Below are positions 30,093 to 50,274 of a stretch of 53,539 nt of DNA, piece by piece (positions within the stretch are counted from its first letter, which is position 1; every line of letters begins with the position of its first letter). Both the position numbers and the translations under genes were made by a program. The DNA is from Caryophanales bacterium (GTDB taxonomy: Bacteria > Bacillota > Bacilli > Paenibacillales > CANHCR01): positions 1 through 53,539 of the forward strand of contig CANHCR010000015.1 in assembly GCA_947459205.1 (NCBI GenBank), written 5' to 3'. Under the pieces are notes generated by a model. That model did no database searches, was not told the origin of the DNA, and worked only from the letters and a program-made list of their open reading frames with translations.

Positions 30093-30821
30093 GTGAACGC
30101 GAAAATTTTGGTCGTTGAGGATGAACAGCCGATTTCGGATATATTAAAGTTTCAACTTGAGAAAGAAGGTTATACGGTGGTGTGTGCGTTTGATGGACTT
30201 GCGGCAGTGGCGCAGTTCGAGCGCGAACAACCCGATTTGATATTGCTTGACTTGATGTTACCTGGTAAGGACGGTATGGAAGTGTGCCGTGAAGTGCGCA
30301 CAAAGAGTAGAGTGCCGATTATTATGTTGACGGCGAAACATTCGGAAATTGATAAGGTGCTCGGCTTAGAGATGGGTGCGGACGATTATGTGACCAAGCC
30401 GTTCAGTGCTCGTGAATTGTTGGCGCGCGTGAAGGCAAATTTGCGTCGGAATGTTTCAACGCCGCAAACAGCGGTTGGACAAACAGTAGAAGGCAAATCG
30501 GGACAGGGTATGCAACTCGATCGCTTGTTTATTGATACGGATTTATGTGTGATATACAAAGATGAGAAGGCGCTTGATTTGACGCATCGTGAATATGAAT
30601 TGGTGCTTTATTTGGCCAAAAATATTGGCAAGGTGTTGACGCGAGAACATTTGTTGCAAAGCGTTTGGGGCTTCGAATATTTGGGTGATGTACGAACGGT
30701 CGATGTGACGATTCGCCGGCTTAGAGAAAAGCTCGAGGACGAACCGAGTCAACCAGACTATATCATTACTCGTCGCGGAATGGGATATACGATGCGCAAT
30801 CCAAAGGTCGGGGGGCACTGA
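30093..30821 (+). CDS. walR: Response regulator WalR (YycF)
   Basis: Essential OmpR-type regulator of cell-wall hydrolase genes, activated by WalK. 242 aa. The receiver domain (1-118) has the acidic pocket EDE near the N-terminus, phospho-acceptor Asp in [10 protein letters not shown] (about 53) and K in [10 protein letters not shown] (about 102). The OmpR winged helix (about 140-235) has the recognition-helix region [17 protein letters not shown]. It starts at GTG 30093. First gene of walR-walK-walH-walI-walJ. Confidence 0.96.
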
Positions 30822-30826
30822 GCCAA

Positions 30827-32656
30827 ATGAAGGCGTTGCGCCTGATTCGCTCGATACAAAGCAAACTGATTATTATATACGTGTTGCTCATTTTAATCGC
30901 CATGCAGTTGATTGGCGTTTATTTTGTGCGCACGTTAGAGTCGTATTTTGTAAATACGTTCAGCGATTCGCTTCGTAAGCAGTCGTATTTGTTAGCTGAA
31001 TTCGTTGAGCCGTATTTGTCGGTGAAAGAAATCGGAGCGACGACAACGGAGCAACCGACACAAGATATTAATGCGATGGTCGAGCGGTTGTTCACCTTGA
31101 GTGGCGCTGAAATTCAAGTCATAGATGGCAATGGCATCGTATTGAGTACGTCGATTGAGTCGCATCGGGATGTGGTTGGCAAGAAGAATACGCAGACGGA
31201 AGTCAGTCGCGCTCTGCAAGGGATTCGCTTGAACGAACGGATGATTGTCGATACAGACGGTTTGCGTAAAAAGTTGATTGCTACACCAGTCGGCAGTGCA
31301 GGCAACATTGTGGGTGCTATTTACATTGTCGCTTCGATGGAAGATTTGTATCGCAATATGAGTCGCATCAATCAAATTTTTATATCTGGTACGGTGATTG
31401 CTTTGGTGCTGACCGCGCTGTTGGGTGTCATTCTCTCGTCGACGATTACAGCACCCATCAAGCAAATTCGGCGAAGTACGACGGCGATTGCTGAGGGTCA
31501 ATTTAATCAGTTTGTGACGGTGCGAAGTGCCGATGAGATCGGCGAGTTGGCGGAGTCGTTTAATTTTATGACGTCGCGGCTGAAGGAAGCACTTGGTAAC
31601 ATTGAAGAAGAGAAAGAAAAATTGGCGCAAGTGTTGGCCAACATGAGTGATGGCGTGGTGGCGGCGGATGCGGATGGTCGCGTGATTGTCATGAATCGTC
31701 AGGCTCGCAAAATGTTCGGTTTGGCTGATTCAGAAATCACGCCACGCAATATGGCGCGTTTATTCGACATGCCGTGGCGTAAAATTAAAGAGATGACAGA
31801 GCAACCGGATGCGGCGCAGCAAATGTGGGAAGCGAGCGAGGGGATGGCAGTGCGCATTTCATTTACTGCGATTCGCCGTGCCGACCGCGAACCGATTGGC
31901 ATCATCGCCGTTCTCCAGGATGTGACGCAACAGGAGATGTTGGAGCACCAGCGCAAAGAGTTTGTAGCGAACGTGTCGCACGAACTTCGTACGCCGCTGA
32001 CGACGATTAAGAGTTATTTGGAGGCGTTGGTTGATGACGGCGCCCTGCAAGACCCGGAGTTGGCGGAGCGCTTTCTTGGTGTGACGCGGAACGAAACCGA
32101 GCGTATGATTCGGTTGGTGAATGACTTATTGTTAATTTCACAACTTGACAGACCGCAGTCACAATTGAATTTGCAAGCGCTGCAGGTCGGTGAACTTTTG
32201 GAAGAAGTGAGCGATCGCTTTGCTTTTCAATTGCAGCAAAAACAAATGATGTGTGATGTGAAACTAGCGATTGATTTGCCGCCGTTGCTCGTTGATCGCG
32301 ACAAACTTGATCAAGTGCTGGACAATTTGCTGTCGAATGCGATCAAATTTACACCGGAACAAGGTCGAATTGTCATCAAAGCGGAGCAACTTGACGCGCG
32401 CTGGATACGGATCTCTGTTCAAGATAATGGAATCGGCATCCCGAAGAAAGATATCGAGTTTATTTTTGATCGTTTTTATCGTGTGGATAAGGGCAGGTCG
32501 AGGCAAATGGGGGGCACTGGCTTAGGGCTTTCAATTGCTCGCACGATTATTCATGCTCACGGCGGAACGATTGCCATTGAGTCGCAACTTCATACGGGTA
32601 CAACGGTGTCATTTACATTACCGATTGATGAAAGAGGGAGTGCCGATCATGTTTGA
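30827..32656 (+). CDS. walK: Sensor histidine kinase WalK (YycG)
   Basis: Membrane kinase for WalR. 609 aa. Two membrane segments (about 12-35 and 183-205) flank an extracellular Cache-like sensor. HAMP (about 206-258), PAS (about 265-365) and HisKA with phospho-His in NVSHELRTPLTTIKSYLEAL (about 385) follow. HATPase boxes are DNLLSNAIKFTP (N), DNGIGIPKKD (G1) and GGTGLGLSIA (G2). ATG at 30827. The end overlaps walH by 8 bp. Confidence 0.97.
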   Translation: MKALRLIRSIQSKLIIIYVLLILIAMQLIGVYFVRTLESYFVNTFSDSLRKQSYLLAEFVEPYLSVKEIGATTTEQPTQDINAMVERLFTLSGAEIQVIDGNGIVLSTSIESHRDVVGKKNTQTEVSRALQGIRLNERMIVDTDGLRKKLIATPVGSAGNIVGAIYIVASMEDLYRNMSRINQIFISGTVIALVLTALLGVILSSTITAPIKQIRRSTTAIAEGQFNQFVTVRSADEIGELAESFNFMTSRLKEALGNIEEEKEKLAQVLANMSDGVVAADADGRVIVMNRQARKMFGLADSEITPRNMARLFDMPWRKIKEMTEQPDAAQQMWEASEGMAVRISFTAIRRADREPIGIIAVLQDVTQQEMLEHQRKEFVANVSHELRTPLTTIKSYLEALVDDGALQDPELAERFLGVTRNETERMIRLVNDLLLISQLDRPQSQLNLQALQVGELLEEVSDRFAFQLQQKQMMCDVKLAIDLPPLLVDRDKLDQVLDNLLSNAIKFTPEQGRIVIKAEQLDARWIRISVQDNGIGIPKKDIEFIFDRFYRVDKGRSRQMGGTGLGLSIARTIIHAHGGTIAIESQLHTGTTVSFTLPIDERGSADHV

Positions 32657-33929
32657 ACGATTAAAAACGATCACACTGACGGTCCTCGTGCTACTAAGCC
32701 TGATACAGACGTACGTGCTAGTGTATAGGACGCCGCAGTTTGAGCAGGCGGTGCAAAGTGATTACGTGCAGACGGAGCAGGCGGATACATTGCTTGAACT
32801 CCCGCAATTGTTGCAGCCGCGGATGATTATCGCACACTTAGGTGCAGAGGCGCATTCCGTGTTCTATCCGCAGACACCTGAATATGACAATATGGTGGCT
32901 ACATGGCGCCAATTTTCCTATGAAAATTTGCAAAAAACGGATATGACGCTAGCCCAATTTTACGAAGCGAGAGAGCAACGGTTGGCGATGTCGATTCAAT
33001 TTGAACAGGAACTTGAGTTGGAGACGATTCAAGCGTGGCTGAATCTGAAAACCGAAACTGAATTGGAGCTGCAGCCTTCGTTCGATGTGATGTTTGTCGC
33101 GCCGAATGTGCCGGACAACAAGATGGATGTTTGGTTGGTCTCACATGCAAACGGTTACGTCTACAAGTGTTTGGAAACGGATTTGACGGAGACAGAATTT
33201 ACGGAGTTGATGGTCAACGCCTCACTGCAAACGGTATATCGCACGTATGGCAAACGATACTTTGTGCCAGAGCAGGCGAACGGATGGCCCGTATATCAGG
33301 TGGCGTATGAAAAAGTGGCGACGGAATCATTGTGGCAGCGGCTGTTTATTGATCCGAACATCACGCGCAATTTGACAGAGCGCGACGGCACGAAAATATA
33401 TACGGATGGCAAGCGTGGATTGCAAATCAAAAATAATGGGCGCTATATGGTTTTTTCTGATCCGGTCGCACAACAAAATTTCCGCGGCAGTTCGCTCGAA
33501 AGTATGCGAAACGGCGTGCAGTTTATTAACAAGCATGGTGGATGGAGCGGTGATTTTAAACTGCGCGGTTTGAGTGTGAATGAAGCAGATGGGGAAAGCG
33601 TGTACGAGTTTCGCCAATACTTCGGATCGTTACCACTTGTACATCGTGTGGATTCTTGGTTCGGGTATACACGCTTAAAAATGAAAGGTGGTACTGTGGC
33701 GGGGTACCAGCGCCCGATGATCGAGTTATCGTCGCAAGCCAAAAAAGTGAAAGACGTTTCGTTGATTGCTGGTGAGCCGTTGCTGTTGCGACTAGAAGAA
33801 CTGCAGAAAATGGGTCCGTTGCGCGCGTTCGAACCTGTATATGATGTGCAATGGTTGGATGAGGGCGTACGCTTGACGCCAGTATGGGCGGTACAAAGTA
33901 ACGATGGCAAGTGGACGTATATACAATAG
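32649..33929 (+). CDS. walH: Two-component system regulatory protein WalH (YycH)
   Basis: Membrane-anchored outer-surface protein that with WalI modulates WalK. 426 aa from ATG 32649 (MFERLKTITLTVLVLLSLIQ, one membrane helix at about 7-25); GAGGGAG lies 8 bp upstream. The extracellular part is diverged but position and topology fit YycH. The longer in-frame stretch upstream lies inside walK and is not used. Overlaps walK by 8 bp; walI starts 11 bp after its stop. Confidence 0.88.
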   Translation: MFERLKTITLTVLVLLSLIQTYVLVYRTPQFEQAVQSDYVQTEQADTLLELPQLLQPRMIIAHLGAEAHSVFYPQTPEYDNMVATWRQFSYENLQKTDMTLAQFYEAREQRLAMSIQFEQELELETIQAWLNLKTETELELQPSFDVMFVAPNVPDNKMDVWLVSHANGYVYKCLETDLTETEFTELMVNASLQTVYRTYGKRYFVPEQANGWPVYQVAYEKVATESLWQRLFIDPNITRNLTERDGTKIYTDGKRGLQIKNNGRYMVFSDPVAQQNFRGSSLESMRNGVQFINKHGGWSGDFKLRGLSVNEADGESVYEFRQYFGSLPLVHRVDSWFGYTRLKMKGGTVAGYQRPMIELSSQAKKVKDVSLIAGEPLLLRLEELQKMGPLRAFEPVYDVQWLDEGVRLTPVWAVQSNDGKWTYIQ

Positions 33930-33940
33930 GGGGTCAGGCA

Positions 33941-34678
33941 ATGGAGTGGGGCAGAGCGAAAACGATTTTGATCATCGCCTTTGTCGTATTGAATATGTTG
34001 CTCGTATTCCAGTTGCGTGATAGCACTCAGGATATGACCGTACAAAATGTCGATATGGAGTCGTTCAGTGATGAGGTTCGAGCGCTCATGAAGAGTAAAA
34101 ATGTGGTCATCGAGTCTGATATGCCGGAGGTCAGCGGACCTCTGGAGCAAATTACCGTCACTTTTGATGGTGGCTCGTTGCCGGTCAAAAAACAAACGTT
34201 GAATCAACCGATTGCCTCGAATGTGGCGCTCAACAGTTCGGAGTTTTATGCGATGTTGCAGACACGTGTGAATGATGTAGAAATGAGTGATTATCAATAC
34301 GATGAACAGATGACAAATGACAGGGTAATCTTGTATCATCAATTGTACGAAGGGTTACCGATGTTTGAAGTGAATTTGCGTTTGTATCGTGAAAATGGCA
34401 AAGTGGTGGCGTATAGTCGCGATCGTGTGACGATTGAGACGATGGGCGAACAGACGATGATTTCTAGTTATACGGCGGTCAGTACGCTTGTCGAAAATTA
34501 TTTGCCCGATGGCGCCGTGGTGGAACATGTGCAACTCGGTTATCATGGACAAATCTACAATTCAGAGAAACAGTTTTTGACACCGTTTTGGCGGGTGTTG
34601 TTGGCGGACGGCTCGAAGTATTATGTGCATGCCATCAACGGCGCTGTCGAAGCGTTGCAGAAGGAGTCGAATTCATGA
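33941..34678 (+). CDS. walI: Two-component system regulatory protein WalI (YycI)
   Basis: Partner of WalH. 245 aa from ATG 33941 (MEWGRAKTILIIAFVVLNML, the typical YycI start with W-x-x-x-K-x-I-x-I and a membrane helix), followed by an extracellular beta-rich domain. GGGGGT lies 8 bp upstream. The final ATGA overlaps the walJ start, so the two are coupled. Confidence 0.9.
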   Translation: MEWGRAKTILIIAFVVLNMLLVFQLRDSTQDMTVQNVDMESFSDEVRALMKSKNVVIESDMPEVSGPLEQITVTFDGGSLPVKKQTLNQPIASNVALNSSEFYAMLQTRVNDVEMSDYQYDEQMTNDRVILYHQLYEGLPMFEVNLRLYRENGKVVAYSRDRVTIETMGEQTMISSYTAVSTLVENYLPDGAVVEHVQLGYHGQIYNSEKQFLTPFWRVLLADGSKYYVHAINGAVEALQKESNS

Positions 34679-35478
34679 GTATGCAGTTTAGCGTTCTAGC
34701 GAGCGGCTCGACTGGGAACAGTTTGGTTGTGAAAAGCAAGCATAAGCGCTTGTTGATTGATGTTGGTTTGTCGGCGAAAAAGATGTGCGAATCGCTGGAA
34801 CAGCTGGGGGCGCGCGCGGAGGAAATTGACGCGGTGTTAATCACCCACGAACATAGCGATCATATTAAAGGGCTGGGCGTGTTTGCGCGGAAATATGGGG
34901 TGCCAATCTATGCCAATGCGGCGACGTGGGGTAAACTACAACAGATGAGCACGATTGGTGACATCGATGAGCGTCAGCGTCGTGTGTTTGTAACAGGTGA
35001 CGTACTTGAGTTCGACGATGTGCAGGTGCAAACGTTTGGAATTTCGCACGATGCGGCGGAACCGGTTGGGTTCTGTTTTCATCATGAACAGCGAAAATTG
35101 AGCGTGGTGACGGATCTCGGTTATGTAAGTGAGCGCATCAAGCAAACGATTCGCGAATCGGACATACTAGTGATGGAGAGCAACCATGATGTGAACTTGT
35201 TGCGCAGTGGTCATTATCCGTGGAATATTAAACGGCGCATTTTGAGCGACATCGGGCATTTGTCGAATGTTGATGCGGCGGCGGCGATGTACGACGTACT
35301 GTCGAACCGGACAAGGCGCCTCTACTTGGCGCATCTGAGCCTACAGCACAACTTGCAGGATTTGGCGCGCATGACCGTGTCTCAAGTGTTGGAGGAAAAA
35401 GGAATTGAGATGGCGCGTGGCGAAGTGGAATTAATGCATACATATCATGACCGGCCGACAAAATGGGATGCCGTATAG
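34675..35478 (+). CDS. walJ: Metallo-beta-lactamase fold hydrolase WalJ (YycJ)
   Basis: Cytosolic MBL-fold exonuclease-type protein of the wal operon, linked to DNA replication or mismatch repair and cell-wall control in other Firmicutes. 267 aa from ATG 34675 (MSMQFSVLASGSTGNSLVV); AAGGAG lies 8 bp upstream. The metal motif THEHSDHIKGL is at about 58, with Asp/His further on (SVVTDLGYV, MESNHD, AHLSLQHN). Confidence 0.93.
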   Translation: MSMQFSVLASGSTGNSLVVKSKHKRLLIDVGLSAKKMCESLEQLGARAEEIDAVLITHEHSDHIKGLGVFARKYGVPIYANAATWGKLQQMSTIGDIDERQRRVFVTGDVLEFDDVQVQTFGISHDAAEPVGFCFHHEQRKLSVVTDLGYVSERIKQTIRESDILVMESNHDVNLLRSGHYPWNIKRRILSDIGHLSNVDAAAAMYDVLSNRTRRLYLAHLSLQHNLQDLARMTVSQVLEEKGIEMARGEVELMHTYHDRPTKWDAV

Positions 35479-35507
35479 GCGCGTGAAGCCGGAAGGAGTA
35501 GATGGCA

Positions 35508-36653
35508 GTGAGTTTGTTTGATGACAGTTTTTATAGTGGTCAGAAACCGAAGCGTCCGTTTCGAGGCGGTGCGGTGGCGGGGTTTTTGCTGTTGGCGGCG
35601 GGCATCGGCGTATTTTTGACTTTTCTTGTTTTTCCGTATTTGGTCAATCGCGGCTATGTGCAAGTTGATTTGTCGCAGCATCGAAGCGATAAAATTAGTG
35701 CCGTGGCGGAACAGATGCAACCGGCGATTGTCAGTATATTTGGCTATACTGAAGAAACGGATATGGAATTAGAGGACATGCAGGACTATTCCATCGGATC
35801 CGGTGTGGTGGTGCGAAAAACGGGTGATGTGGCGCAAATTGTCACGAATTATCATGTCATTCAGGGTGCAAAAAATATCGAAGTGATGCTGATTAGCGGT
35901 GAGCGCTTGAAAGCGAAATTGTTGGCGGAAGATCCGATGTCTGATTTGGCGTTGGTTGAGGTCAAGAGTAAGTTGCTGAAGCACGTCGCAAAGTATGGCG
36001 ATTCCGACCGTTTGCGAGTCGGTGAGACGGCAATCGCCATTGGCAACCCGTTGGGGCTTGGCAATACGCCGACGATTACGACGGGTGTCATCAGTTCGTT
36101 AAAGCGCACCGTGCCGGTCTCGTTGCAAAATGATGAAATGTATGATTGGGAACTGGATGTCATTCAGACGGATGCGGCGGTCAATGAAGGCAACAGTGGC
36201 GGGGCGTTGCTCAATATGCGCGGGGAATTGGTCGGTATTATTAGTATGAAAATGTTGGATGTCGGTGTGGAGGGGTTGGCGTTTGCGATTCCGATTAACT
36301 TCGCCAAACCACTCATCGAACAGATGATGGTCAATAAGAAGGTAGAGCGTCCGTATATCGGGATTGCGATGCAGGATTTGCAAGAGTTTGTCGCGACGGA
36401 AAGTTTGGACTTGCCGGATGGGATAAACCAAGGAGTCGTAGTGCTGGAGGTTGATGGACCGGCAAAGGAAATCGGTCTGCGTGCGAAGGATGTCATTGTC
36501 CGCTTGGACCAACAAGAGATTCACGACAGCATCGATTTGCGCAAATATTTGTATGCTGAAAAAGTGATTGGTGATCGCTTGGTGATTACATTTTATCGCG
36601 ATGGCAAAAAACAGTCTACGAGTTTGCGCTTGCAAAAACGCGTCGATGAATAG
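35508..36653 (+). CDS. htrA: HtrA-type serine protease (S1C, with PDZ)
   Basis: Membrane-anchored quality-control protease facing outside. 381 aa. One membrane helix (about 25-45) precedes the trypsin-like domain with His in TNYHVIQG (about 118), Asp in DPMSDLALVEV (about 149) and Ser in NEGNSGGALLN (about 231). One PDZ domain (about 285-372, RAKDVIVRLDQQEI) follows. I prefer GTG 35508 (MSLFDDSFYSG) with AGGAG 9 bp upstream; ATG 35502 is only 3 bp from it. Follows walJ as in B. subtilis (yycK). Confidence 0.95.
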   Translation: MSLFDDSFYSGQKPKRPFRGGAVAGFLLLAAGIGVFLTFLVFPYLVNRGYVQVDLSQHRSDKISAVAEQMQPAIVSIFGYTEETDMELEDMQDYSIGSGVVVRKTGDVAQIVTNYHVIQGAKNIEVMLISGERLKAKLLAEDPMSDLALVEVKSKLLKHVAKYGDSDRLRVGETAIAIGNPLGLGNTPTITTGVISSLKRTVPVSLQNDEMYDWELDVIQTDAAVNEGNSGGALLNMRGELVGIISMKMLDVGVEGLAFAIPINFAKPLIEQMMVNKKVERPYIGIAMQDLQEFVATESLDLPDGINQGVVVLEVDGPAKEIGLRAKDVIVRLDQQEIHDSIDLRKYLYAEKVIGDRLVITFYRDGKKQSTSLRLQKRVDE

Positions 36654-36662
36654 GGTGATGAT

Positions 36663-39600
36663 GTGACGATGTTGCAGATGCGAGTTTTGAGTTTATTGAT
36701 TTGCATGCAAATGCTACTGCCTTCGGGCGGTGGCATTTTTGTGCATCAAGAGCCAGTAGCGGTTGGTGCTGGCGGGATTTATTCGCATGCGATTGTGATG
36801 GATGGCAAGCAGGATTTTTATGATAGTCTCAATGCGCCGCGGACGAGCAACGAGACGTTTTCGACGTCATCGAGTGGCGTGTTTAGTTATTTGACGTGGG
36901 ATGCGAATCATCTGTATTTTGCCTATCAAGCGGACGACGTGCGTTCGAACGTAAGTCAGGCGGGGAATAAGTGGATTTGGCTGTATATTGGCGGGGCTGG
37001 TGGGACGACTACCGGTTTGGAGTATGCCGGCCAACAGCCTCAGTTGCCGTTTGCGGCGAAGTACCATGTTCGCTTCCGTGTGGATGGTTCATATACGAAT
37101 CGACAAATGTGGAACGGTGTGGCGTGGAAGGATATGGGGAATTATGCTGGGGGTAGCAATGTGGCGCGGGATGACAGTAATCGATATGTGGAGTTCAAAT
37201 TACCGCGTGCTCATTTTGGTCTCGAAACAGCGAGTCGTCTGCAAATAGTGGCTGCTTTGGTTTATGAAGATCAAGCGGGGGCGAATGACGCGATGTGGGG
37301 TGCTGTACCTTATGATGCGTTCGGTGAACAAGGCGATGGCTATGACCGTGACTTTCAGAAGCATTACGAGTTTGATTTGACAGCTAGCAATGCAGCGGCG
37401 TCGCAAGCATACGATTATTCGCTGGTGGTGGCGGAGCAGAGGTCCGATCAAGTGCGCATTGGTTTTCACGCGGCACCTGGCGCCTCGCAGGTGAGGTTGG
37501 AACAGTCGGAGGATGGTGGAGTTTCGTGGCGGGCGGCGAAAACGGAGCAAGTGGTCACGGAATCGACGAGGGTTGCGAAAGTTGCTGGTCTGCTTGCAGG
37601 CGATGCATATGGATTCAGGTTGAAGGTGAGTGGCGGAGAGATGGCGGGGCAATCTGTCCCGGTCTATTTGCGTCTGCCTCAAGCTGGATATCGCCATACG
37701 ATCTTGTTGGATGGCGTTAACGATTTTTATACGAATCGTCAAGTGGGGCAGAATGAGACATTTGCTACGTCGAGCGGGTATGTGTTTGCCAATGTGACGT
37801 GGGATGATGAATTCCTGTACTTTGGCTATCACGCCAAGGACATCGTCAGCACCTCGACGAACGCTGCGAGTAAATGGTTGTGGCTCTATATTGGCGGAGC
37901 GGGTGGCACGACTAGCGGTTTGGAGTATGCCGGCCAACAGCCACAGTTGCCGTTTGCAGCCAAGTATCACTTGCGCTTCCGTGTCGATGGATCGTATACG
38001 AATCGACAGATGTGGAATGGTTCGGCGTGGCAGGACATGGGCAATTATTCTTGGGGTACACATGTAGCTCGTAATGACGGACTTGAATTTGTCGAATTTC
38101 GTCTGCCACGCAAAGATTTTAGCTTAACTGACGCACGGTCTTTGCAAATGGTCAGTGCGTTGGTTACGGAGGATAAACTCGGAAACAACGATCGCATGTC
38201 GGCGGCGCTTCCGAGTGATGCGTTCGGTGCGGCGGGTAACGGCTATGACCGCGATTTTTTGAAAGCATATGAGTTTGATTTGCAATCGGATGTGGCGCCG
38301 GCGTCCCAAGTATTTGCATATGAGTTACAAGTGCAGGCAGTCGATTCGAAAAGCGCAAAATTGAAGTTTGCAGCGCAGTCAGGTGATAGCCAAGTGTGGG
38401 TGGAACAATCGCAGGATGGTGGCGCGACGTGGCAGAAATCTGTGCTGTCGAAACCGCTCGATGAAACATCGCGCGTGGCGGATGTGACGGGGTTGGCTGC
38501 CAATACGCGTTACATCTTTCGATTGAGGTCAAATTCCGGTGGTGTTGCGGGAGGTCCATTGGCGCCTCGTCACTCGGTTACTGAGGTTAGCCAGTGGATT
38601 ACTGATGTTGCAACGGACAAAGCACGTTACCTTCCGAATGATAAAGTGCAAGTGATGATTGAATTACAAAATCCGAGCATCACGGCTGTCACAGGTGAGT
38701 TACATGTGGTGGTGGCGCATATGGAGCGTCAAGTGGCGGCTCAATCGAGCGGTGCACTGACATTGCCGGCATCATCAAATGGTTCAACGGTTAAGCAAAC
38801 GGTGACGATTCCGATCACAGCGCCGACTGCCGATTTTAAAGGATACCGCCTGGATGTGTATTGGCAACCACTGAATAGCACGTTTGTCGATTATCGGAGT
38901 GGGGCATTCGATGTGTCGAGTGACTGGACGCGTTTTCCAAGGTATGGCTACATCACGGATTATCCGGCGATGACTGAGCAAGAGGTGGCTGCAGTCATTA
39001 AGCGTTTGAACCGCTATCACATCAATGCACTGCAATATTATGATTGGCAGTGGAAGCATCATATTCCGGTGAAAATGGAGAATGGCAAACCGGCGGCGGT
39101 GTGGAAGGATATTGCCAATCGTGACGTGTATTCGCAAACGATTCGCGCATACCTTGCAGAGGCCAAGCAACGCAACATGCTCAACATGAACTATAATCTG
39201 ATGTTTGGTTCATACGTCGGTGCACAGGCTGATGGCGTGTTGCCGGAGTGGGGTCTGTATAAAGATCGAAACCGCAGTGAGCAAGATGTGCATCCGTTGC
39301 CGAGCACGTGGGCGACTGACCGGATTCTTATTCAAAATCCGGCGAACGACGGTTGGGTGAATTACATTTTGCAGACGGAAAAAGTAGCGTTGGAGCAGTT
39401 TGGTTTTGATGGATGGCACATCGATCAATTGGGCAATCGCGGTACATTGTATGATTATTACGGCAATGAAGTTGCGTTTGATGATGCGTATGGCTCGATG
39501 TTAGGGAAAATTCAGGAACGATTGAAAACGCGCTTGGTGATGAATGCGGTTTCGGAGTATGGAGTGCAGCAGATTGCCGCCGCGCCAGTGGATGTGCTAT

Positions 39601-40952
39601 ATACGGAGGTATGGCCGTTTCCGCAGGATCGTTCGTATAGTCAACTGAAACGTTACGTCGAGACGGGGCTGCGTTTGGGGCAAGGAAAACGCGGACAAGT
39701 GTTGGCGGCTTATATGAATTATCAGGCGGCGGAGCAACCGGGTCAGTTTAACACGCCAGCAGTGTTGCTGACCGATGCGGTGATTATGGCCGCGGGTGGC
39801 ACGCACCTGGAGTTGGGCGACACCGGCATGCTCGGCAAGGAGTATTTTCCAAATAAAAACTTGAAGATGAGCGCTGAGCTGGAGGAGCGGCTGAAGCGAT
39901 ATTATGATTTTCAGACTGCGTATCAAAATTTGCTGATGGATGGTGTTCAGCCGATCGATGTTCCAGTCAAGGCGGTGGCGGGTGAAACGGTTACTGCTGA
40001 ACCGCAGGCGGGTGCGATTTGGTCATTCGCAAGACAAACTAATGGCGCTCAAGTGGTGCATTTCATCAATTTGAGTAATAATGCAACGACAGATTGGCGC
40101 GACGATGATGGAAATAATGTGACGATGCCGACGAAAAAAACGAATGTGAAGGTTCAGTTGCAAACGGAGGTGTGGCCAGAGAAGGTATATTTTATGACGG
40201 CAGATGGAGACTTGCGCATGCAGGAAGTGGTGCCGACGGTGAGCGTGAACCGTGACGGGAAGTATGTGTTGGAGTTAACGATTCCGGAATTGCTTTTGTG
40301 GTCTACGATTGTTTTGCAAGATGGGCAGAGCAGGGCTGGCTCTTCTGCTTGGGTGGCGACGAAGACGGATGTACAGGCACCACCGCCTGTGCCGATTGAT
40401 CGGGAGGCGCCTACAGCGCCAAGCGGCCTGAAAGTGACGAATGTCACGACCAGCAGTTTGCGGGTGACGTGGAGTGCTTCGAAAGATAATGTCGGCGTTA
40501 CGGGATATAACGTCTACCGAGACGGCGCGTATGTATTTTCAGTGGCGACTAACAGTGCAACAATGAGCGGATTGAAGCCAGGGACGACTTATCGAATTCA
40601 AGTGTTGGCGTACGATGTGCGGATGAACAAATCTTCAAGGAGTGCAGCATTGACCGTGCGAACGGCTACTCCGCTTGATACCGTGGCGCCTACGGTGCCG
40701 AATGGGCTCGTGATTTCGAATGTGACGAAAAGCGGATTCCGCGTGGCGTGGAGTGCCTCGAAGGACAATGTTGGCGTCACTGGATATAACGTCTATCGCA
40801 ATGGCGTGTACGTCGCTACTGTCTCGGGGCGGGCGATGACTTTCAGTGGATTGAAGGCGAACACACTTTATAAGATTCAGGTGCTGGCTTTCGACCAGCG
40901 AATGAATAAATCGGTCAGAAGCTCTGAGTTACAAGTCAGAACGTTGCGTTGA
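36663..40952 (+). CDS. Secreted multidomain GH66-type glucanase/dextranase-like protein
   Basis: 1429 aa. A signal sequence (about 1-36) precedes a duplicated unit of a CBM9/DOMON-like beta-sandwich (about 40-235; 345-535) plus a fibronectin-III-like domain (about 245-335; 548-640). A glycoside hydrolase family 66 region (about 645-1230) and two FN3 domains (about 1248-1338; 1345-1428) follow. The GH66 call rests on RFPRYGYITDYP, INALQYYDWQWKHH and GFDGWHIDQLGNRG, where D921 is the likely nucleophile; the acid/base is probably E982 in YTEVWPF. GH66 enzymes are dextranases or cycloisomaltooligosaccharide transferases. GTG start with AGGGTG 5 bp upstream. It sits between htrA and rlmH, normally neighbours. 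Confidence 0.85.
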   Translation: MTMLQMRVLSLLICMQMLLPSGGGIFVHQEPVAVGAGGIYSHAIVMDGKQDFYDSLNAPRTSNETFSTSSSGVFSYLTWDANHLYFAYQADDVRSNVSQAGNKWIWLYIGGAGGTTTGLEYAGQQPQLPFAAKYHVRFRVDGSYTNRQMWNGVAWKDMGNYAGGSNVARDDSNRYVEFKLPRAHFGLETASRLQIVAALVYEDQAGANDAMWGAVPYDAFGEQGDGYDRDFQKHYEFDLTASNAAASQAYDYSLVVAEQRSDQVRIGFHAAPGASQVRLEQSEDGGVSWRAAKTEQVVTESTRVAKVAGLLAGDAYGFRLKVSGGEMAGQSVPVYLRLPQAGYRHTILLDGVNDFYTNRQVGQNETFATSSGYVFANVTWDDEFLYFGYHAKDIVSTSTNAASKWLWLYIGGAGGTTSGLEYAGQQPQLPFAAKYHLRFRVDGSYTNRQMWNGSAWQDMGNYSWGTHVARNDGLEFVEFRLPRKDFSLTDARSLQMVSALVTEDKLGNNDRMSAALPSDAFGAAGNGYDRDFLKAYEFDLQSDVAPASQVFAYELQVQAVDSKSAKLKFAAQSGDSQVWVEQSQDGGATWQKSVLSKPLDETSRVADVTGLAANTRYIFRLRSNSGGVAGGPLAPRHSVTEVSQWITDVATDKARYLPNDKVQVMIELQNPSITAVTGELHVVVAHMERQVAAQSSGALTLPASSNGSTVKQTVTIPITAPTADFKGYRLDVYWQPLNSTFVDYRSGAFDVSSDWTRFPRYGYITDYPAMTEQEVAAVIKRLNRYHINALQYYDWQWKHHIPVKMENGKPAAVWKDIANRDVYSQTIRAYLAEAKQRNMLNMNYNLMFGSYVGAQADGVLPEWGLYKDRNRSEQDVHPLPSTWATDRILIQNPANDGWVNYILQTEKVALEQFGFDGWHIDQLGNRGTLYDYYGNEVAFDDAYGSMLGKIQERLKTRLVMNAVSEYGVQQIAAAPVDVLYTEVWPFPQDRSYSQLKRYVETGLRLGQGKRGQVLAAYMNYQAAEQPGQFNTPAVLLTDAVIMAAGGTHLELGDTGMLGKEYFPNKNLKMSAELEERLKRYYDFQTAYQNLLMDGVQPIDVPVKAVAGETVTAEPQAGAIWSFARQTNGAQVVHFINLSNNATTDWRDDDGNNVTMPTKKTNVKVQLQTEVWPEKVYFMTADGDLRMQEVVPTVSVNRDGKYVLELTIPELLLWSTIVLQDGQSRAGSSAWVATKTDVQAPPPVPIDREAPTAPSGLKVTNVTTSSLRVTWSASKDNVGVTGYNVYRDGAYVFSVATNSATMSGLKPGTTYRIQVLAYDVRMNKSSRSAALTVRTATPLDTVAPTVPNGLVISNVTKSGFRVAWSASKDNVGVTGYNVYRNGVYVATVSGRAMTFSGLKANTLYKIQVLAFDQRMNKSVRSSELQVRTLR
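36990..38035 (+). repeat. 903-bp tandem duplication inside the GH66-type gene
   Basis: The block around 37000-37130 recurs at about 37903-38033 with few changes. For example GGTTTGGAGTATGCCGGCCA starts at 37014 and again at 37917. The period is 903 bp (301 codons) and covers one binding-domain plus FN3 unit. Confidence 0.85.
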
Positions 40953-40994
40953 TCTAGACTTTGGTGAGTACAGCGGAATGGAGAGTGTTAGTCA

Positions 40995-41480
40995 ATGAAT
41001 CAAATGCTCGTCGTTTGTGTCGGTAAACTAAAAGAGAAATATTGGACGGATGCGTGCGCGGAGTATGTGAAACGATTGGGCGCGTATACGAAAGTGCAGA
41101 TTGTGGAAGTGGCGGAGGAAAAAGCGCCGGAAGACTTGAGTGATGCAGAGATGGAGAAAGTGAAAGAGCGAGAAGGGCAGCGGATTTTGGCGGCGCTTCG
41201 TGCTGATGATCACGTGGTGGCACTTGCCATACAGGGCGATGCCTGGTCGTCGGAAAAATTGGCGACTGAACTTGAGCAACTCGGTGTCTATGGTGGTGGC
41301 GGGCGTGTGGCGTTTGTGATTGGCGGGACATTGGGATTGGCTGATGCGGTGCTTAACCGGGCGAAAGTGCGCTTGTCGTTTTCGAAAATGACATTCCCGC
41401 ACCAAATGATGCGCGTCATCTTGTTGGAACAGGTGTATCGGGCGTTTCGGATCATGCGGGGGCATGCGTATCATAAGTAA
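40995..41480 (+). CDS. rlmH: 23S rRNA (pseudouridine1915-N3)-methyltransferase RlmH
   Basis: SPOUT-class methyltransferase acting on pseudouridine 1915 of helix 69 on 70S ribosomes. 161 aa. It has the GKLKEKYW start, the SPOUT knot [14 protein letters not shown] (about 106-119), [20 protein letters not shown] (about 129-148), and ends RGHAYHK. GGAGAG lies 9 bp before ATG. The last codons CAT GCG TAT CAT AAG TAA equal the known SCC attachment core in staphylococci, and copies of this sequence recur downstream. It is the last core gene here; variable DNA follows. Confidence 0.97.
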
Positions 41481-41490
41481 AGTATAAAAA
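41463..41490 (+). repeat. att-like repeat, copy 1 (rlmH 3' end)
   Basis: CATGCGTATCATAAGTAA is the end of rlmH (H-A-Y-H-K-stop), followed by AGTATAAAAAA. The same core is found four more times downstream. It lacks the upstream part that copies 2-5 share, as expected if it is the resident chromosomal half of an attachment site. Confidence 0.8.
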
Positions 41491-41536
41491 ATGTGCGCTT
41501 TTAAAGCATGTTATTGAATAAAGAGAGGTTTTTTAG

Positions 41537-41917
41537 TTGAAATATAAAATTTTATTGTTAATATTTATTTTATTGGCTGGGGTAGGGATAATGATGGAAT
41601 TATCATCCGAAGATCAAAGTTTTGTTGAATTTGAGGTTGAAGGTGTAATTACAAAAATTGAGTTACAACATGATGTTACAGTTGATGATATTAAAGTAAA
41701 TGGTGTAATTTTTGTCAATGGCAAACCAATTAATAATAATTTAACGATGCCAAATGGGATTGGGATTATTGAAGAAACTAATATTTATAAAATAAATGAT
41801 TCCGAAATTAGAGAATCAATCGAATTGAATGACTTAAAGATCGGAGATTATGTTCATTGTTGGATTGCCATGAAATATAATAATCTTACATCTGCTTCGC
41901 AAATTTATGTAAAGTAG
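41537..41917 (+). CDS. Small exported protein of unknown function
   Basis: 126 aa, no family recognised. An N-terminal hydrophobic segment (MKYKILLLIFILLAGVGI) reads as a signal peptide or anchor. The rest is a small beta-rich domain with several Asn/Asp (IKVNGVIFVNGKPINNN). It starts at TTG 41537 with GAGAGG 8 bp upstream. Codon use is far more AT-rich than in rlmH or the GH66-type gene, a sign of foreign origin. It is alone between att-like copies 1 and 2. Confidence 0.75.
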   Translation: MKYKILLLIFILLAGVGIMMELSSEDQSFVEFEVEGVITKIELQHDVTVDDIKVNGVIFVNGKPINNNLTMPNGIGIIEETNIYKINDSEIRESIELNDLKIGDYVHCWIAMKYNNLTSASQIYVK

Positions 41918-41920
41918 CGT

Positions 41921-41953
41921 AATGAGGGCATTTAATCTTGAAAGGGCCTCATA
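41921..41953 (+). terminator. Possible terminator after the small exported protein
   Basis: AATGAGGGC and GCCTCAT arms can pair across a 14-16 nt loop directly after the stop. The tail ACTTATTTAC is only partly T-rich, so the call is weak. Confidence 0.4.
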
Positions 41954-41970
41954 CTTATTTACTATGAAAA

Positions 41971-42020
41971 TATGCATTAAGACCGTTAAGCTCATGCGTA
42001 TCATAAATAAGGTATAAAAA
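41971..42020 (+). repeat. att-like repeat, copy 2
   Basis: ATGCATTAAG-ACC-GTTAAGCT is followed by CATGCGTATCATAAATAA and GGTATAAAAAA. The core again spells H-A-Y-H-K-stop but lies in no gene. The downstream GTATAAAAAA matches copy 1. Confidence 0.8.
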
Positions 42021-42083
42021 ACTCGGTGGTTCTTTTATAGTTCATGAGATTAGGCCCAATATGTTGCAAAATAAGGGTGTGGT

Positions 42084-42539
42084 ATTCTGAGTTATTTTAA
42101 CAAGTTAGATCAAGACTCAAAAAATATTTTGAAATGGTTGGTAACAGCTATTCTTAGTTTGTGTGCAGCAGTTTTGTGTATCATGATGCATTTTTATTTA
42201 TATTCCATCGTACTTGATTGGTTATCTAAATCGCCAGGTTTAAAAGAGCAAGTTTTCTCTTTTTTATGGAAAAAAGACATATGGATAACAGGTTGTTTGG
42301 GTTTTGTGGTTGGGCTCATTTTTGGAAAATTGTTGTTTTCACTTCCTAAGTTAGTGCGGATATACCTATTAATTTTAATCATTATGCTTAATCAGTTGAT
42401 AAGTGCTTATATTTCAAACGTGATATATTTGGATTTTAAAGCTGATTCTTCATTTGGAATAAGTATGGTTGTCGGAGCAGTGATCTATATGTTATATGTT
42501 CACTTTTTAAACCGAACCCCAAAAATGATTACAACATAA
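42084..42539 (+). CDS. Small integral membrane protein of unknown function
   Basis: About 136-151 aa with four hydrophobic segments (LVTAILSLCAAVLCIMM; IWITGCLGFVVGLIFG; LVRIYLLILIIMLNQ; ISMVVGAVIYMLYVHFL). No family recognised; AT-rich. The start is unclear. A TTG at 42129 has no ribosome site, but the frame is open back to 42075, where AAGGGTG stands 4-7 bp before ATT 42084 or CTG 42087, giving LSYFNKLDQDSKNILKWL before the first helix. The 3' end overlaps the convergent toxin gene by 11 bp. Confidence 0.65.
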   Translation: MLSYFNKLDQDSKNILKWLVTAILSLCAAVLCIMMHFYLYSIVLDWLSKSPGLKEQVFSFLWKKDIWITGCLGFVVGLIFGKLLFSLPKLVRIYLLILIIMLNQLISAYISNVIYLDFKADSSFGISMVVGAVIYMLYVHFLNRTPKMITT

Positions 42540-42834
42540 ACTGATACTTTCTCTTACCGTGAAGAATTCGTCTGATTTCAATTTCTTCTTTTAGAACGAC
42601 ATAGAAGACTAAGTAATTTTGAATGACTAACATCCGGTACTTTAAAGATTGTAACCGCCGGTCTTCTGGTACCAATCCTAAAAATGGGAAAGTGGATAAC
42701 GTCGAAATGGTTGTATCCAATTCATCGACAAAAGCATGTGCGATTTGCGCATCGTCTTGAGAAATATAGTCTATGATCTCCAGTAAATCTTGTTGAGCGG
42801 ACGGCAAATAATTAATTTGATAGGTTTGATCCAT
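42529..42834 (-). CDS. Type II toxin, RelE/ParE superfamily
   Basis: 101 aa. The RelE/ParE fold shows in YLPSAQQDLLEIIDYIS at the start, the loop LVPEDRRLQSLKYRMLVI and the C-terminal strand EIRRILHGKRKYQFML. ParE members poison gyrase and RelE members cut mRNA; the ELDTTISTLSTFPFLG helix and the R-R-x-x-H end lean to the ParE branch, but this is not certain. It overlaps the antitoxin by 23 bp and is on the opposite strand to its neighbours. Confidence 0.88.
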   Translation of the reverse strand: MDQTYQINYLPSAQQDLLEIIDYISQDDAQIAHAFVDELDTTISTLSTFPFLGLVPEDRRLQSLKYRMLVIQNYLVFYVVLKEEIEIRRILHGKRKYQFML

Positions 42835-43093
42835 TGATTTTTCCTCGGAGTTGTTTCATCATTTCGTCGTGCGAAAGTTTTGGTTCTTGCTTCCGGCTCT
42901 CTTCTTCAGCAACAGCAAGTTTTTCATATAACTCAATGATTGCTTGTTGCTTTTCATACAATGCATGACTCATGATGACTAAATCGCCAACGCCATTTTT
43001 CGTGATGAATACAGGTTCGCCTTCTTTGTGGCAAAGGTCGGAAATTAAGTTGAAGTTGTTTCGCAAATCAGAGATCGGGCGGATATTCGGCAT
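42812..43093 (-). CDS. Type II antitoxin, Phd/YefM family
   Basis: 93 aa from ATG 43093 (MPNIRPISDLRNNFNLISDL), with AGAGGTG 6 bp upstream. The Phd/YefM N-terminal DNA-binding domain (NIRPISDLRNNF; GEPVFITKNGVGDLVIMS) is followed by a helical toxin-binding tail (QEPKLSHDEMMKQLRGK). The first gene of the pair; it should repress its own promoter. Confidence 0.9.
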   Translation of the reverse strand: MPNIRPISDLRNNFNLISDLCHKEGEPVFITKNGVGDLVIMSHALYEKQQAIIELYEKLAVAEEESRKQEPKLSHDEMMKQLRGKINGSNLSN

Positions 43094-43179
43094 TTTGAAC
43101 ACCTCTGTTTCAATGTTTTAATTATCATTATTATACCACAAATCATGATATTTATTGCTCGGAGTCCTCATTAATTTTT

Positions 43180-43230
43180 TATGCATTCGGTGCGTTAAGC
43201 TCATTCTTACCATAAATAACGCATAAAAAA
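43180..43230 (+). repeat. att-like repeat, copy 3 (degenerate)
   Basis: ATGCATTCGGTGCGTTAAGCT precedes CATTCTTACCATAAATAA, then CGCATAAAAAAA. The core differs from copy 2 at four positions but still reads H-S-Y-H-K-stop. The downstream TGCGAATC motif (about 43233-43241) returns after copy 4. Confidence 0.7.
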
Positions 43231-43419
43231 ACTTGCGAATCGTACACAATTTACTCACCATCATGATTGACGGAGAAGATTCCATGCGCAAACGTAAAGG
43301 TTTACACTCATAATGGCAACTTATTAAACGAATGAGTGTCAGGAGAGTCACTAAAACAAGGGGTTCTCTTGACTAACATGGTGGTATTCTTAGGTTAACA
43401 CGGTGTCTCAACGAGTGGT
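43231..43419. other. Non-coding remnant DNA between att-like copy 3 and the IS fragment
   Basis: About 190 bp with no convincing gene. It is probably debris of the truncated insertion sequence and of other mobile DNA; I see no clear terminal inverted repeat. Confidence 0.4.
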
Positions 43420-43725
43420 TCAATGGCACTCTCGAGCTGAAATATTCACCAACCAACCGTCACGGCGCTGATAGGGTTCGAACACCTGGGTTTGAAAACT
43501 TCCCTGCCGGTCGCGCGGAACATTCAAGTCGTCAATGCGACCAAAACAAGTGTCAAGCTTGTGTTGGTAATAACCGTTGCGATTGTTTGCATCGCCGGGT
43601 TTTTCGACTTCCAAGTAATTCTTGAGTTCTTCCTTGATGATAAGCTCGATTTTTTCCTTCACAAAGGAGCGCATGAGATTTTTCAATTGTAAAGAAAGAT
43701 CGGTATCGTGTACAATAGGTTTCAT
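43420..43725 (-). pseudogene. IS256-family (mutator) transposase, N-terminal fragment
   Basis: 101 aa. Residues 1-93 match the start of IS256-type transposases: NRNGYYQHKLDTCFGRIDDL and NVPRDRQGSFQTQVFEPYQR are diagnostic. Full-length enzymes have about 390-400 aa and a DDE domain, none of which remains; after RRDGWL the frame runs into unrelated residues and a stop. ATG 43725 with AGAGAGGA upstream. The upstream end of the element may lie near 43784-43812, where TTTACACAA is present. Confidence 0.85.
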
Positions 43726-43891: not shown

Positions 43892-46564
43892 TTGTATAAA
43901 AAACCGGTTTCTCTATCCATGGCGTTTTGCCTGCTTTTCAGTTTGTTGCCGTTTTCGTGGCTGAATGTGGTTAATCAGACGGCGCAGGCAGAAATTGCTC
44001 CGACTCAAGCGATGCTTGACAACGGCTTGATTCGCTTAGGGGATCCCACTGATGACGATTCTGTGAATATTTACGGTCAGTTGCAGGAACCTCATCATTA
44101 CGTGTATTCTCCTGGCAAGACACATATTCAAGGCTTGACCGACGGAGATGATCTGGTGCAGTCGTTTGCAGTCGGTGGTGACGGTACGGAGGAGTGGAAT
44201 TTAAACGGTACAGTAGTCGGTTCTATCCAAGTACCACTCGATAATGTGGTTGTTGATCGCTCTGGATTTGTTTCTACCGGTGATGGGAAAGGATACGGTA
44301 CGATTATCTCAACCGGCACAAGAGATATTGAGGGCACGACGCTTGAATTTAAAAACGAATATTCATTGGGGCCATGTACCCCATATGCACGTGTCCTGAC
44401 AACAATAAAAAATGTCGGTGAAGCACCTGCGACGAACGTGCGTTATTGGTCAACTGTTGTCTATGATGACGAATTAGAGGGCGACAACAGTCCACAATTC
44501 AAGGGACAAGGGTTTCTTGTCGATGGAAAATATGTTCAGTCCACGATACCGGGAGAGCGAACCACAACAGTCAAGATTTCGACTCCTGACCCTGATTTGG
44601 CAGATAGAGAGTACTTCGCACTCGTTTATTCACCTGACAAGAAAGCATTTGCTTTCTTTGATGACGAAGAAACATCGGACGATAGAATCCGTCTCTTAAA
44701 CAACAACCCATTCTTGCAACCAACAACAGAGATTATAAATGACTCCGGATCGTACGGAATTTTTAAACGTATGAATGATCTTGCTGTCGGCGAGAGTGAC
44801 ACACTTGAATGGTATTCAGGTGGTACGCATACAGATACGATGAGTTTTGAGGATTTGGTTGCTCTGATGTCACAAGGTGATTCCTCATACAATAAAAAGT
44901 GTGTTTCTTTCAAAAGCAATGGTGGCACACCGATTTCTACAACGTTGGTGAATGACGGAAGCGCCATGGTAAAACCAACAGATCCGACAAGAAACGTTCA
45001 CAAATTTGAAGGTTGGTTTACTGACGAAGCCTTGACTACGGCATATAACTTTGCCAATCCGGTAACGAGTAGTTTTTCTTTGTACGCGAAGTGGACTCTT
45101 GAAGCAACTTTGGATCTTAGTAGTAGCAGAATTGCCGAAAGTGAGCCGTCCGGTTCAAAGGTTGGTACGTTATCGACGACACCAAGTCTAGGTGATGGTT
45201 CGACCTATCAACTCGTAGCTGGTGAAGGTGATACTGACAATGGTAGCTTCATGATTGAAAGCAATCCGACAGATGGCACATGGCTCAGTACGGCAACGGC
45301 ACTGGATTATGAAACGAAATCAAGCTACAGTGTTCGTGTGGCAGTTACGAATGGGAGCATTACGTTTGCCAAGGCGTTTACGATTACTTTAACGGATGTG
45401 AATGAGAACGCATCGCCAACTGACATCAGTTTGAACACGAGCACCGTAGCGGAAAATGTTGCGAGCGGCACGACGGTCGGCACGTTGAGCGCGACGGATG
45501 CAGACAGCGGCGATACGGCGACATTCAGTTTGGTTGCCGGTGACGGAGACACGGACAACGTAAGCTTCACGATTGACGGCACCACGTTGAAAGCGGCGGC
45601 GAGTTTCGACTATGAGACAAAATCGAACTACAGCATCCGCGTGCGGGTGACGGACAGTAAAGGTGAGAAGTATGAGGAATCGTTCACTATAAGCGTGACA
45701 AATGTGAACGAGGCACCGACGGATATCAGTGTAACTGCGAGCACCGTAGCGGAAAATGCTGCGAGTGGCACGACGGTCGGTACGTTGAGTGCGGTGGATG
45801 TAGACAGTAGTGATACGGCTACGTTCAGTTTGGTTGCCGGGGACGGTGACACGGACAATGCAAGTTTCACGATTGACGGCACTTCTTTAAAAACAGCGGC
45901 GAGTTTCGACTATGAGACAAAATCGAGTTACAGCATCCGCATACGCGTGACGGACATTGGCGATTTAAGTTATGAGAAACTGATTACTATTAGCATAACG
46001 GACGTAAATGAATTCAAGGACGTACCGAAAGATGCATGGTACGCAACGGCGGTCAACTACTTGGGTCAAATGAATATTGTACAAGGCGACGGCATTGGAA
46101 ACGCACGGCCGTTTGATAAACTGACTCGCGCGGAATTTATTAAAATGGTTGTGGCAACGTTTGAAATTGACAGCAGTTCGACGGAAGAGATGAACTTTAA
46201 AGATGTTGTCAATGACAAATGGTACTATGAATCCATGCAGGTGGCATGGCGTGCCGGCATCATCAAGGGCTTCGGCGACAGTACGGTCAAACCGAATCAA
46301 GCGATTACCCGTCAAGATATGATGGTGATTCTACATCGTGCGTTGCTCTATAAAAGCATCACATTCCCAACGGTTGACGGACCAAAGTTAAGCGATATTA
46401 AGGATGCGAGTATGGTTTCCGCGTTTGCCGTATCTGCATTGAATGACTTGATTCGCTATGAAATCGTGAAAGGGTCGAGTGGCAAACTGCGTCCGCTAGA
46501 CATTGCGCTTCGTGCCGAGGGTCAAGTGATTTTGTACCGTGCGCTGATGAGATTTGCTGGCTAA
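43892..46564 (+). CDS. Surface protein with cadherin-like repeats and SLH anchor domains
   Basis: 890 aa. A signal peptide (about 1-33) leads into a 300-residue beta-rich N-terminal region with no recognised family. A Listeria-Bacteroides-type repeat (about 333-400, GWFTDEALTTAYNFANPVTS) comes next. Three cadherin-like repeats (about 405-510, 510-610, 610-708, with the calcium-type DVNE and DADSGDTATF motifs) precede three SLH domains (about 710-890; FKDVPKDAWYATAVNYLGQM first) that bind secondary wall polymer. TTG start with AGAGGTGG 6 bp upstream. It ends in a strong terminator. Likely a calcium-dependent S-layer-associated protein; ligand unknown. Confidence 0.9.
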   Translation: MYKKPVSLSMAFCLLFSLLPFSWLNVVNQTAQAEIAPTQAMLDNGLIRLGDPTDDDSVNIYGQLQEPHHYVYSPGKTHIQGLTDGDDLVQSFAVGGDGTEEWNLNGTVVGSIQVPLDNVVVDRSGFVSTGDGKGYGTIISTGTRDIEGTTLEFKNEYSLGPCTPYARVLTTIKNVGEAPATNVRYWSTVVYDDELEGDNSPQFKGQGFLVDGKYVQSTIPGERTTTVKISTPDPDLADREYFALVYSPDKKAFAFFDDEETSDDRIRLLNNNPFLQPTTEIINDSGSYGIFKRMNDLAVGESDTLEWYSGGTHTDTMSFEDLVALMSQGDSSYNKKCVSFKSNGGTPISTTLVNDGSAMVKPTDPTRNVHKFEGWFTDEALTTAYNFANPVTSSFSLYAKWTLEATLDLSSSRIAESEPSGSKVGTLSTTPSLGDGSTYQLVAGEGDTDNGSFMIESNPTDGTWLSTATALDYETKSSYSVRVAVTNGSITFAKAFTITLTDVNENASPTDISLNTSTVAENVASGTTVGTLSATDADSGDTATFSLVAGDGDTDNVSFTIDGTTLKAAASFDYETKSNYSIRVRVTDSKGEKYEESFTISVTNVNEAPTDISVTASTVAENAASGTTVGTLSAVDVDSSDTATFSLVAGDGDTDNASFTIDGTSLKTAASFDYETKSSYSIRIRVTDIGDLSYEKLITISITDVNEFKDVPKDAWYATAVNYLGQMNIVQGDGIGNARPFDKLTRAEFIKMVVATFEIDSSSTEEMNFKDVVNDKWYYESMQVAWRAGIIKGFGDSTVKPNQAITRQDMMVILHRALLYKSITFPTVDGPKLSDIKDASMVSAFAVSALNDLIRYEIVKGSSGKLRPLDIALRAEGQVILYRALMRFAG
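45440..46015 (+). repeat. 300-bp tandem repeats coding cadherin-like domains
   Basis: GAGCACCGTAGCGGAAAATG begins at about 45439 and again at 45739, an exact 300-bp (100-codon) period with few differences over each unit. A third, diverged unit lies before it (about 45110-45410). High DNA identity points to recent duplication or homogenisation. Confidence 0.85.
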
Positions 46565-48523: not shown

Positions 48524-48561
48524 TTTTGTCCGTAAATCTTGCTAAACATGGAGGAACGAAG

Positions 48562-50217: not shown

Positions 50218-50274
50218 ACCGCTACACAAAAAGTTGCGCTTTCACCGGCCAAGTCACATTCTTAAACGATTCAC

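Follow-up and report, generated by a model that had tools for sequence, protein, structure and literature searches.

A predicted secreted GH66 dextranase encoded between htrA and rlmH in a Caryophanales bacterium, and the unnamed CBM9-like module that it carries

What does a large glucanase-like gene do between htrA and rlmH, two genes that adjoin each other in several Gram-positive bacteria (PMC12826053, excerpt)? The question is raised by contig 15 (CANHCR010000015.1) of a Caryophanales bacterium, analysed here over its whole length of 53,539 nucleotides (nt) and called the window, in which a gene of the GH66 type occupies positions 36663 to 40952, behind the wal genes. An earlier note made from the letters alone (the original prediction) had proposed that this gene links the degradation of dextran or alpha-glucans to wall control. 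Our reading, drawn from sequence comparison, is that it probably encodes a secreted dextranase serving alpha-glucan breakdown and not wall control. As an enzyme it belongs to a known type; the part worth pursuing is an unnamed CBM9-like module at its N-terminus, a candidate carbohydrate-binding module that is absent from Pfam and forms a single domain of 205 amino acids (aa). If the module does bind alpha-glucans, it would add a new branch to the modules that bind starch or dextran, and would show a 2.5-Mb bacterium committing a good part of its large secreted proteins to these polymers.

The GH66 gene and its enzyme type

The gene was confirmed as one intact open reading frame (ORF) with htrA and rlmH on its two flanks, as originally described, and its parts are the following.

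36663..40952, + strand: GH66 gene, one intact ORF of 1429 codons from GTG 36663; ATG 36669 is the likelier start
36654..36659, + strand: candidate ribosome-binding site GGTGAT, 9 nt ahead of ATG 36669 and right behind the htrA stop codon, proposed from the sequence
36669..36770, + strand: probable signal peptide region with the hydrophobic stretch LSLLICMQMLL, judged by eye from the translation
36771..37394, + strand: module copy 1, remote CBM9-like domain, by sequence and profile comparison
37395..37685, + strand: putative Ig/FN3-like domain behind copy 1, from weak matches to repeat arrays in other genomes
37686..38300, + strand: module copy 2, a repeat of copy 1
38301..38570, + strand: putative Ig/FN3-like domain behind copy 2, repeating the domain behind copy 1
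38613..40313, + strand: GH66 region, residues 651-1217, by Pfam Glyco_hydro_66
39423..39425, + strand: codon of Asp921, catalytic nucleophile by alignment
39606..39608, + strand: codon of Glu982, acid/base by alignment
40416..40655, + strand: FN3 domain, residues 1252-1331, by domain match
40683..40946, + strand: second FN3 domain, bounds approximate, by domain and repeat comparison

The protein may begin at ATG 36669, since GGTGAT fits this codon better than GTG 36663. The assignment to GH66 was borne out by a match to Pfam Glyco_hydro_66 over the full profile (1-546 of 546) at residues 651-1217, with E 2e-170 and 568.5 bits against a cut-off of 23.7. The closest relative in the Protein Data Bank (PDB) is the dextranase of Thermoanaerobacter pseudethanolicus (5axg, E 1.9e-152), which aligns to residues 644-1219 and shares the position of the nucleophile; in the printed alignment 5axh differs from 5axg at the residue aligned with Asp921, which we take to be the nucleophile of that enzyme, and the difference is what would be expected of a nucleophile mutant. 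Unlike the window protein, the deposited chain has 618 residues and is aligned at 42-609, so that there is no room in it for two N-terminal units of 300 aa or for the FN3 pair. All 48 GH66 loci compared retain both acids, Asp921 and Glu982; in the window protein the two lie 61 residues apart, against 62 for D293 and E355 in FjGH66 (PMC10316084, in part). The GH66 family and the catalytic residues are shown by these comparisons; dextran is the likely substrate.

A glucanotransferase, making cyclic or transferred isomalto-oligosaccharides in place of hydrolysing dextran, would also belong to this family, and one result speaks for it and against our reading: PDB chains named CITase (9sje to 9sjh) align in one unbroken stretch with E 4e-102 to 6e-104, so that architecture alone cannot settle the matter against ring formation. 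The dextranase 5axg matches far better, however, and the CBM35 inserted in the catalytic domain, given as the hallmark of CITases (PMC5408701 and PMC10316084, excerpts), is absent from the GH66 domain, whose profile match is continuous. The Paenibacillus CITases 3wnk and 5x7g share the GH66 homology and the catalytic pair with the window protein, but their CBM35-1 is inserted at the seventh barrel loop (PMC5408701, in part), and no such insertion is found here. We consider a transferase quite unlikely.

Returning to the dextranase, its closest kin do not share its architecture. In a GH66 tree of 43 rows its sister, with support of 100/100, is the GH66 of a single metagenome-assembled genome, Paenibacillaceae bacterium RE-23may17-333 (locus L031, CANHGK010000015.1; genome G010). 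This domain, the closest to that of the window protein at 55% identity, belongs to a protein that differs in having 1018 aa and an N-terminal Cu_amine_oxidN1 match just under the cut-off, with no match to the module or to FN3; the GH66 of G010, whose catalytic row is identical to that of L031, differs further in sitting on another contig than rlmH. The NCBIfam equivalog EndoDexBT3087 (NF052487) scored 512.5 bits, under its curated cut-off of 730, which leaves the protein outside that equivalog. Among plasmids the whole protein matched 60 records, none covering 80% of it, the best being a Bacteroides GH66 with 37% identity over 40%.

In the mechanism that we propose, the gene product would be an endo-dextranase, presumably exported, in which the two tandem N-terminal modules would hold the enzyme on alpha-glucan, the GH66 domain would cleave alpha-1,6 linkages as a retaining enzyme, Asp921 and Glu982 being its catalytic pair, and the two C-terminal FN3 domains would act as spacers. 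Such an enzyme may be one part of a large alpha-glucan foraging apparatus. The genome of the window (2.52 Mb, 73 contigs, 99.45% complete) contains 27 stretches matching alpha-amylase (GH13), spread over 20 open frames of which the longest has 2859 codons. CBM25 is matched by 38 stretches in 13 frames, and there are two GH31 and one GH66. Its GH13 and CBM25 repertoire is very large for alpha-glucans and gives the organism the look of an alpha-glucan forager. A known counterpart of its other giant proteins is MaAmyB of Microbacterium aurum, a large multi-domain alpha-glucan enzyme with several FNIII domains and CBM25, which differs from the window protein in belonging to GH13_42 and not to GH66 (PMC5093618, excerpt).

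The N-terminal repeat and its CBM9-like module

The original prediction had described an internal duplication of 903 bp in a glucanase-like gene. Its spacing is real, two families of copies being found at 903 nt; the repeat is, however, an old tandem repeat of domains, with 62% DNA identity (549 of 888 aligned sites), and it forms accessory modules rather than part of the glucanase. It comprises two units of about 300 aa, each made of the 205-aa domain and an Ig/FN3-like domain. A block of 236 nt within it reaches 81% identity. Gene conversion between the copies was considered for this block and rejected: among identical residues the codons are identical in 33 of 57 cases inside the block and in 52 of 100 outside, and for this reason the block is a conserved protein core and not a recent conversion tract. 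In the tree of module copies the two from the GH66 protein are sisters (97/97).

Eleven module members scanned against Pfam gave no notable match, the best being DUF3862 at E 0.02 in one member; CBM9_1 matched none of the 11 at E <= 1, and a module profile found nothing among PDB sequences up to E 10. A relationship appeared only in the comparison of alignments. HHalign of the module against 20 divergent CBM9_1 domains gave a score of 42.2 (prob 85.4), rising to 43.2 (prob 87.2) when the copy of genome G729 was added, against a best score of 21.7 in 100 column shuffles, while a reversed alignment reached prob 1.1 and an FN3 alignment prob 0.1. Without the copies of the window the score was 43.7. 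The four copies from other genomes, taken by themselves, gave 46.4, and the eight copies of the window's genome alone gave 33.5 (prob 51.8). The likeness to CBM9 extends over about 120 columns and includes the 'WD..LY' and 'E..IP' stretches, whereas the module differs in its conserved core, around GGTTxGxxYxGQQPxLPFxAKYH, and is missed by the Pfam model. Several results count against our reading of the module: CBM9_1 finds nothing in the window's whole genome, and the module reached prob 24.4 when the 50 CBM9 members were pooled and prob 3.2 with the 30 xylanase-type ones. Its AlphaFold model, mostly strands, is too poor (pLDDT 50.6) to inform on the fold, a Foldseek search of this low-confidence model, with no hit at E <= 0.001, not being used. 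Since the probability is high against the divergent set but low against the pooled and the xylanase-type sets, we describe the module as a remote CBM9-like domain and not as a member of the Pfam family. In the open-licence literature, judged by titles and the beginnings of abstracts, no report of a CBM9-like module in a GH66 dextranase was found (PMC4765114, which contains 'dextranase' and 'CBM9', was judged no further), and the available part of PMC11093988 does not mention the module.

The window's genome contains nine copies, eight of them full and one split over two contig ends, where the end of L074 and the start of L075 (contigs C55 and C13) overlap by 21 nt; these two are probably one giant FN3/CBM25 protein broken by the assembly. 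Six proteins of the genome carry the module. Three are FN3 giants with CBM25, and one of these (L073) also has SLH domains; the others are the GH66 protein, a subtilase and a DUF6273 protein. Four of the six thus combine it with CBM25 or, in the case of the GH66 protein, with GH66. The subtilase (L070:7526-16306), a protease that has the dextranase's module in common with it, is 2926 aa long, with two module copies, nine FN3 and four cadherin matches.

Outside this genome the module is rare. Among 392 genomes of the order, the window's own included, strong matches were found in G010 (two), G040 (one) and G729 (one); marginal matches in G179 (E 4.2e-4) and G649 (E 9.7e-4) were left out of the count of neighbours. 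In samples of the class and the phylum, 398 genomes each, only the window's genome matched, plasmids gave no match and two scans of viral contigs confirmed no relative. In all three other genomes with strong copies the module gene has a neighbour that matches GH13. G040 has a GH13 gene with CBM25 immediately upstream of the module gene. In G010 the two neighbours are divergent, and the GH13 match is a partial one. G729, found only in the last search of the order and examined for its neighbourhood afterwards, again has a GH13 gene immediately upstream, here with matches to CBM53 and CBM25, while an SLH protein is encoded next after the module gene. Queries cut from the neighbour genes of G040 and G010 matched none of the 41 housekeeping stretches around rlmH, described below, that served as background; the pattern rests on three genomes, and no probability is claimed for it.

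Not all of this fits alpha-glucan binding. The subtilase with its cadherin matches and the DUF6273 protein, two of the six carriers, have no alpha-glucan domain, and GH13 and CBM25 queries matched nothing around them (L070, L072); the GH13 match in G010 has only 34 bits; and the background control is weak, as the GH13 query from G040 missed the GH13 gene of G010 and could therefore have missed GH13 genes in the controls too. The main alternative is that the module recognises the surface or matrix of the bacterium itself, where it would display many kinds of proteins; its association with alpha-glucans would then arise only because the large proteins secreted by this organism are mostly alpha-glucan proteins. 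The presence of the module in the subtilase and the DUF6273 protein agrees with this, and so does the fact that 3 of the 13 CBM25 frames carry it, which would mean that CBM25 is simply common here. It is set against this that the module adjoins GH13 genes in three other genomes and that L073 already has SLH domains for anchoring, and we regard surface display as rather unlikely. Alpha-glucan binding is our preferred guess, for which we would put the chances at about even. The wider idea, which we offer tentatively and hold to be doubtful, is that the repeat founds a new family of carbohydrate-binding modules with kinship to CBM9 and a specificity for alpha-glucans. This family would have multiplied in a forager of small genome, and would anchor the dextranase, the giants with CBM25 and even a protease on one common substrate.

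The place of the gene and the wall-control idea

The GH66 gene starts 9 nt after htrA and ends 42 nt before rlmH, all on the same strand, in the following surroundings.

30093..35478, + strand: wal genes walR, walK, yycH, yycI and walJ, in the same gene order as in relatives; walJ encodes a metallo-beta-lactamase-fold protein by domain match
35502..36653, + strand: htrA-like serine protease gene with PDZ domain, by domain and family matches
40995..41480, + strand: rlmH, by domain and family matches

The names of the five upstream genes are those that we presume to apply, in agreement with the original prediction. Another explanation of the position would be misassembly, with htrA wrongly linked to a contig from elsewhere, in a draft of 73 contigs in which one module gene is indeed broken at contig ends. 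The junction of 9 nt, with the ribosome site in register, the intact frames, and the uniform base composition over htrA, the GH66 gene and rlmH make such an error extremely unlikely. The GC content at third codon positions (GC3) is 0.548 in the GH66 gene, close to the 0.565 of htrA and the 0.58 of rlmH, so that the gene looks neither wrongly joined nor recently foreign; a recent foreign acquisition, also considered, receives no support from composition.

For comparison with relatives we used 41 stretches around rlmH, each from a different genome of the same order: 40 were chosen by hand for their spread over families, together with G010, from the 194 genomes in which RlmH was matched (counting that of the window). 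With tblastn the GH66 domain matched none of the 41. GH66 as a regular gene of this spot is ruled out for the sample, and the place of the gene proved as unusual as had been supposed. The statement that htrA and rlmH commonly lie near each other held as well, an htrA relative being found upstream of rlmH in 34 of 40 stretches (G010 left out), at gaps of 51 to 6703 nt, of which 25 measure at most 718 nt. Three of the remaining stretches have walJ without htrA and three have neither, while in L096 and L098 htrA is present without wal genes. In the open-licence literature, judged in the same way as above, no report of GH66 in a wal operon was found.

How the gene reached this place can be sketched. 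In G008 and G018 the gap between htrA and rlmH is about 40-50 nt, and the spacers on the two sides of the GH66 gene sum to 51 nt; this is only suggestive of an insertion into a similarly short spacer. Of the 34 gaps, nine are longer than 1 kb, and all but one of these contain an ORF of at least 200 aa (200-718 aa in L081, L096, L098, L099, L104, L105, L115 and L118), so that the spot seems to accept other genes too and may be a common place of insertion. In our scheme the GH66 gene would have come to lie in the htrA-rlmH spacer in this lineage, and its unusual position is probably incidental.

Transcription was considered from the same sequence. As first predicted, there is no terminator on the upstream side: the 9-nt gap contains neither a terminator nor a consensus promoter, and over 34000-43000 terminator-like sites are no more frequent than chance would give (9 against 8.7 expected). 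On the plus strand the promoter scan gave no site between the yycI region (34434-34461) and 36891, the latter inside the GH66 gene. With neither signal in the gap, read-through from wal-htrA into the GH66 gene is plausible, and we take co-transcription to be somewhat more likely than not. It is tempting to make of this a functional membership in the wal unit, with the breakdown of dextran or other alpha-glucans coupled to wall control through WalRK; the short gap after htrA, the common strand and the missing terminator are what this idea has in its favour. It is opposed by the absence of GH66 from this place in 41 other genomes and by the alpha-glucan context of the genome. For the WalR box we assumed the consensus TGTWAH-N5-TGTWAH, from which that of the host may differ: no exact box occurs in the window, and of the seven sites with one mismatch none lies upstream of walR or of the GH66 gene, two of them falling within that gene itself, on its minus strand. 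The htrA gene of Bacillus subtilis, although co-transcribed with wal, apparently does not act in WalKR regulation, and walRK of Staphylococcus aureus is not autoregulated (PMC4801191, excerpt). The link to wall control is not supported, and we judge a wall-control role of the GH66 gene to be very unlikely. Under the dextranase reading, the probable read-through would provide steady expression rather than a wall-control circuit; we may speculate that a giant secreted enzyme profits from being produced together with the quality-control protease HtrA.

Other features of the window

Behind rlmH, positions 41537-43725 form a stretch of low GC content (0.30-0.40 in 1-kb windows, with a GC3 of 0.22 in the ORF at 41537) that looks acquired; it contains a toxin-antitoxin pair, the toxin of ParE type and the antitoxin of Phd/YefM type, together with part of a transposase of the Mutator family. 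Another large surface protein is encoded near the GH66 gene at 43892-46564, with 890 aa, a Listeria-Bacteroides repeat and three cadherin and three SLH matches. Further on, at 48526-52929, lie two adjacent genes for CotH-kinase proteins, one of which has FN3 domains and a sub-threshold match to an AMPK glycogen-binding domain.

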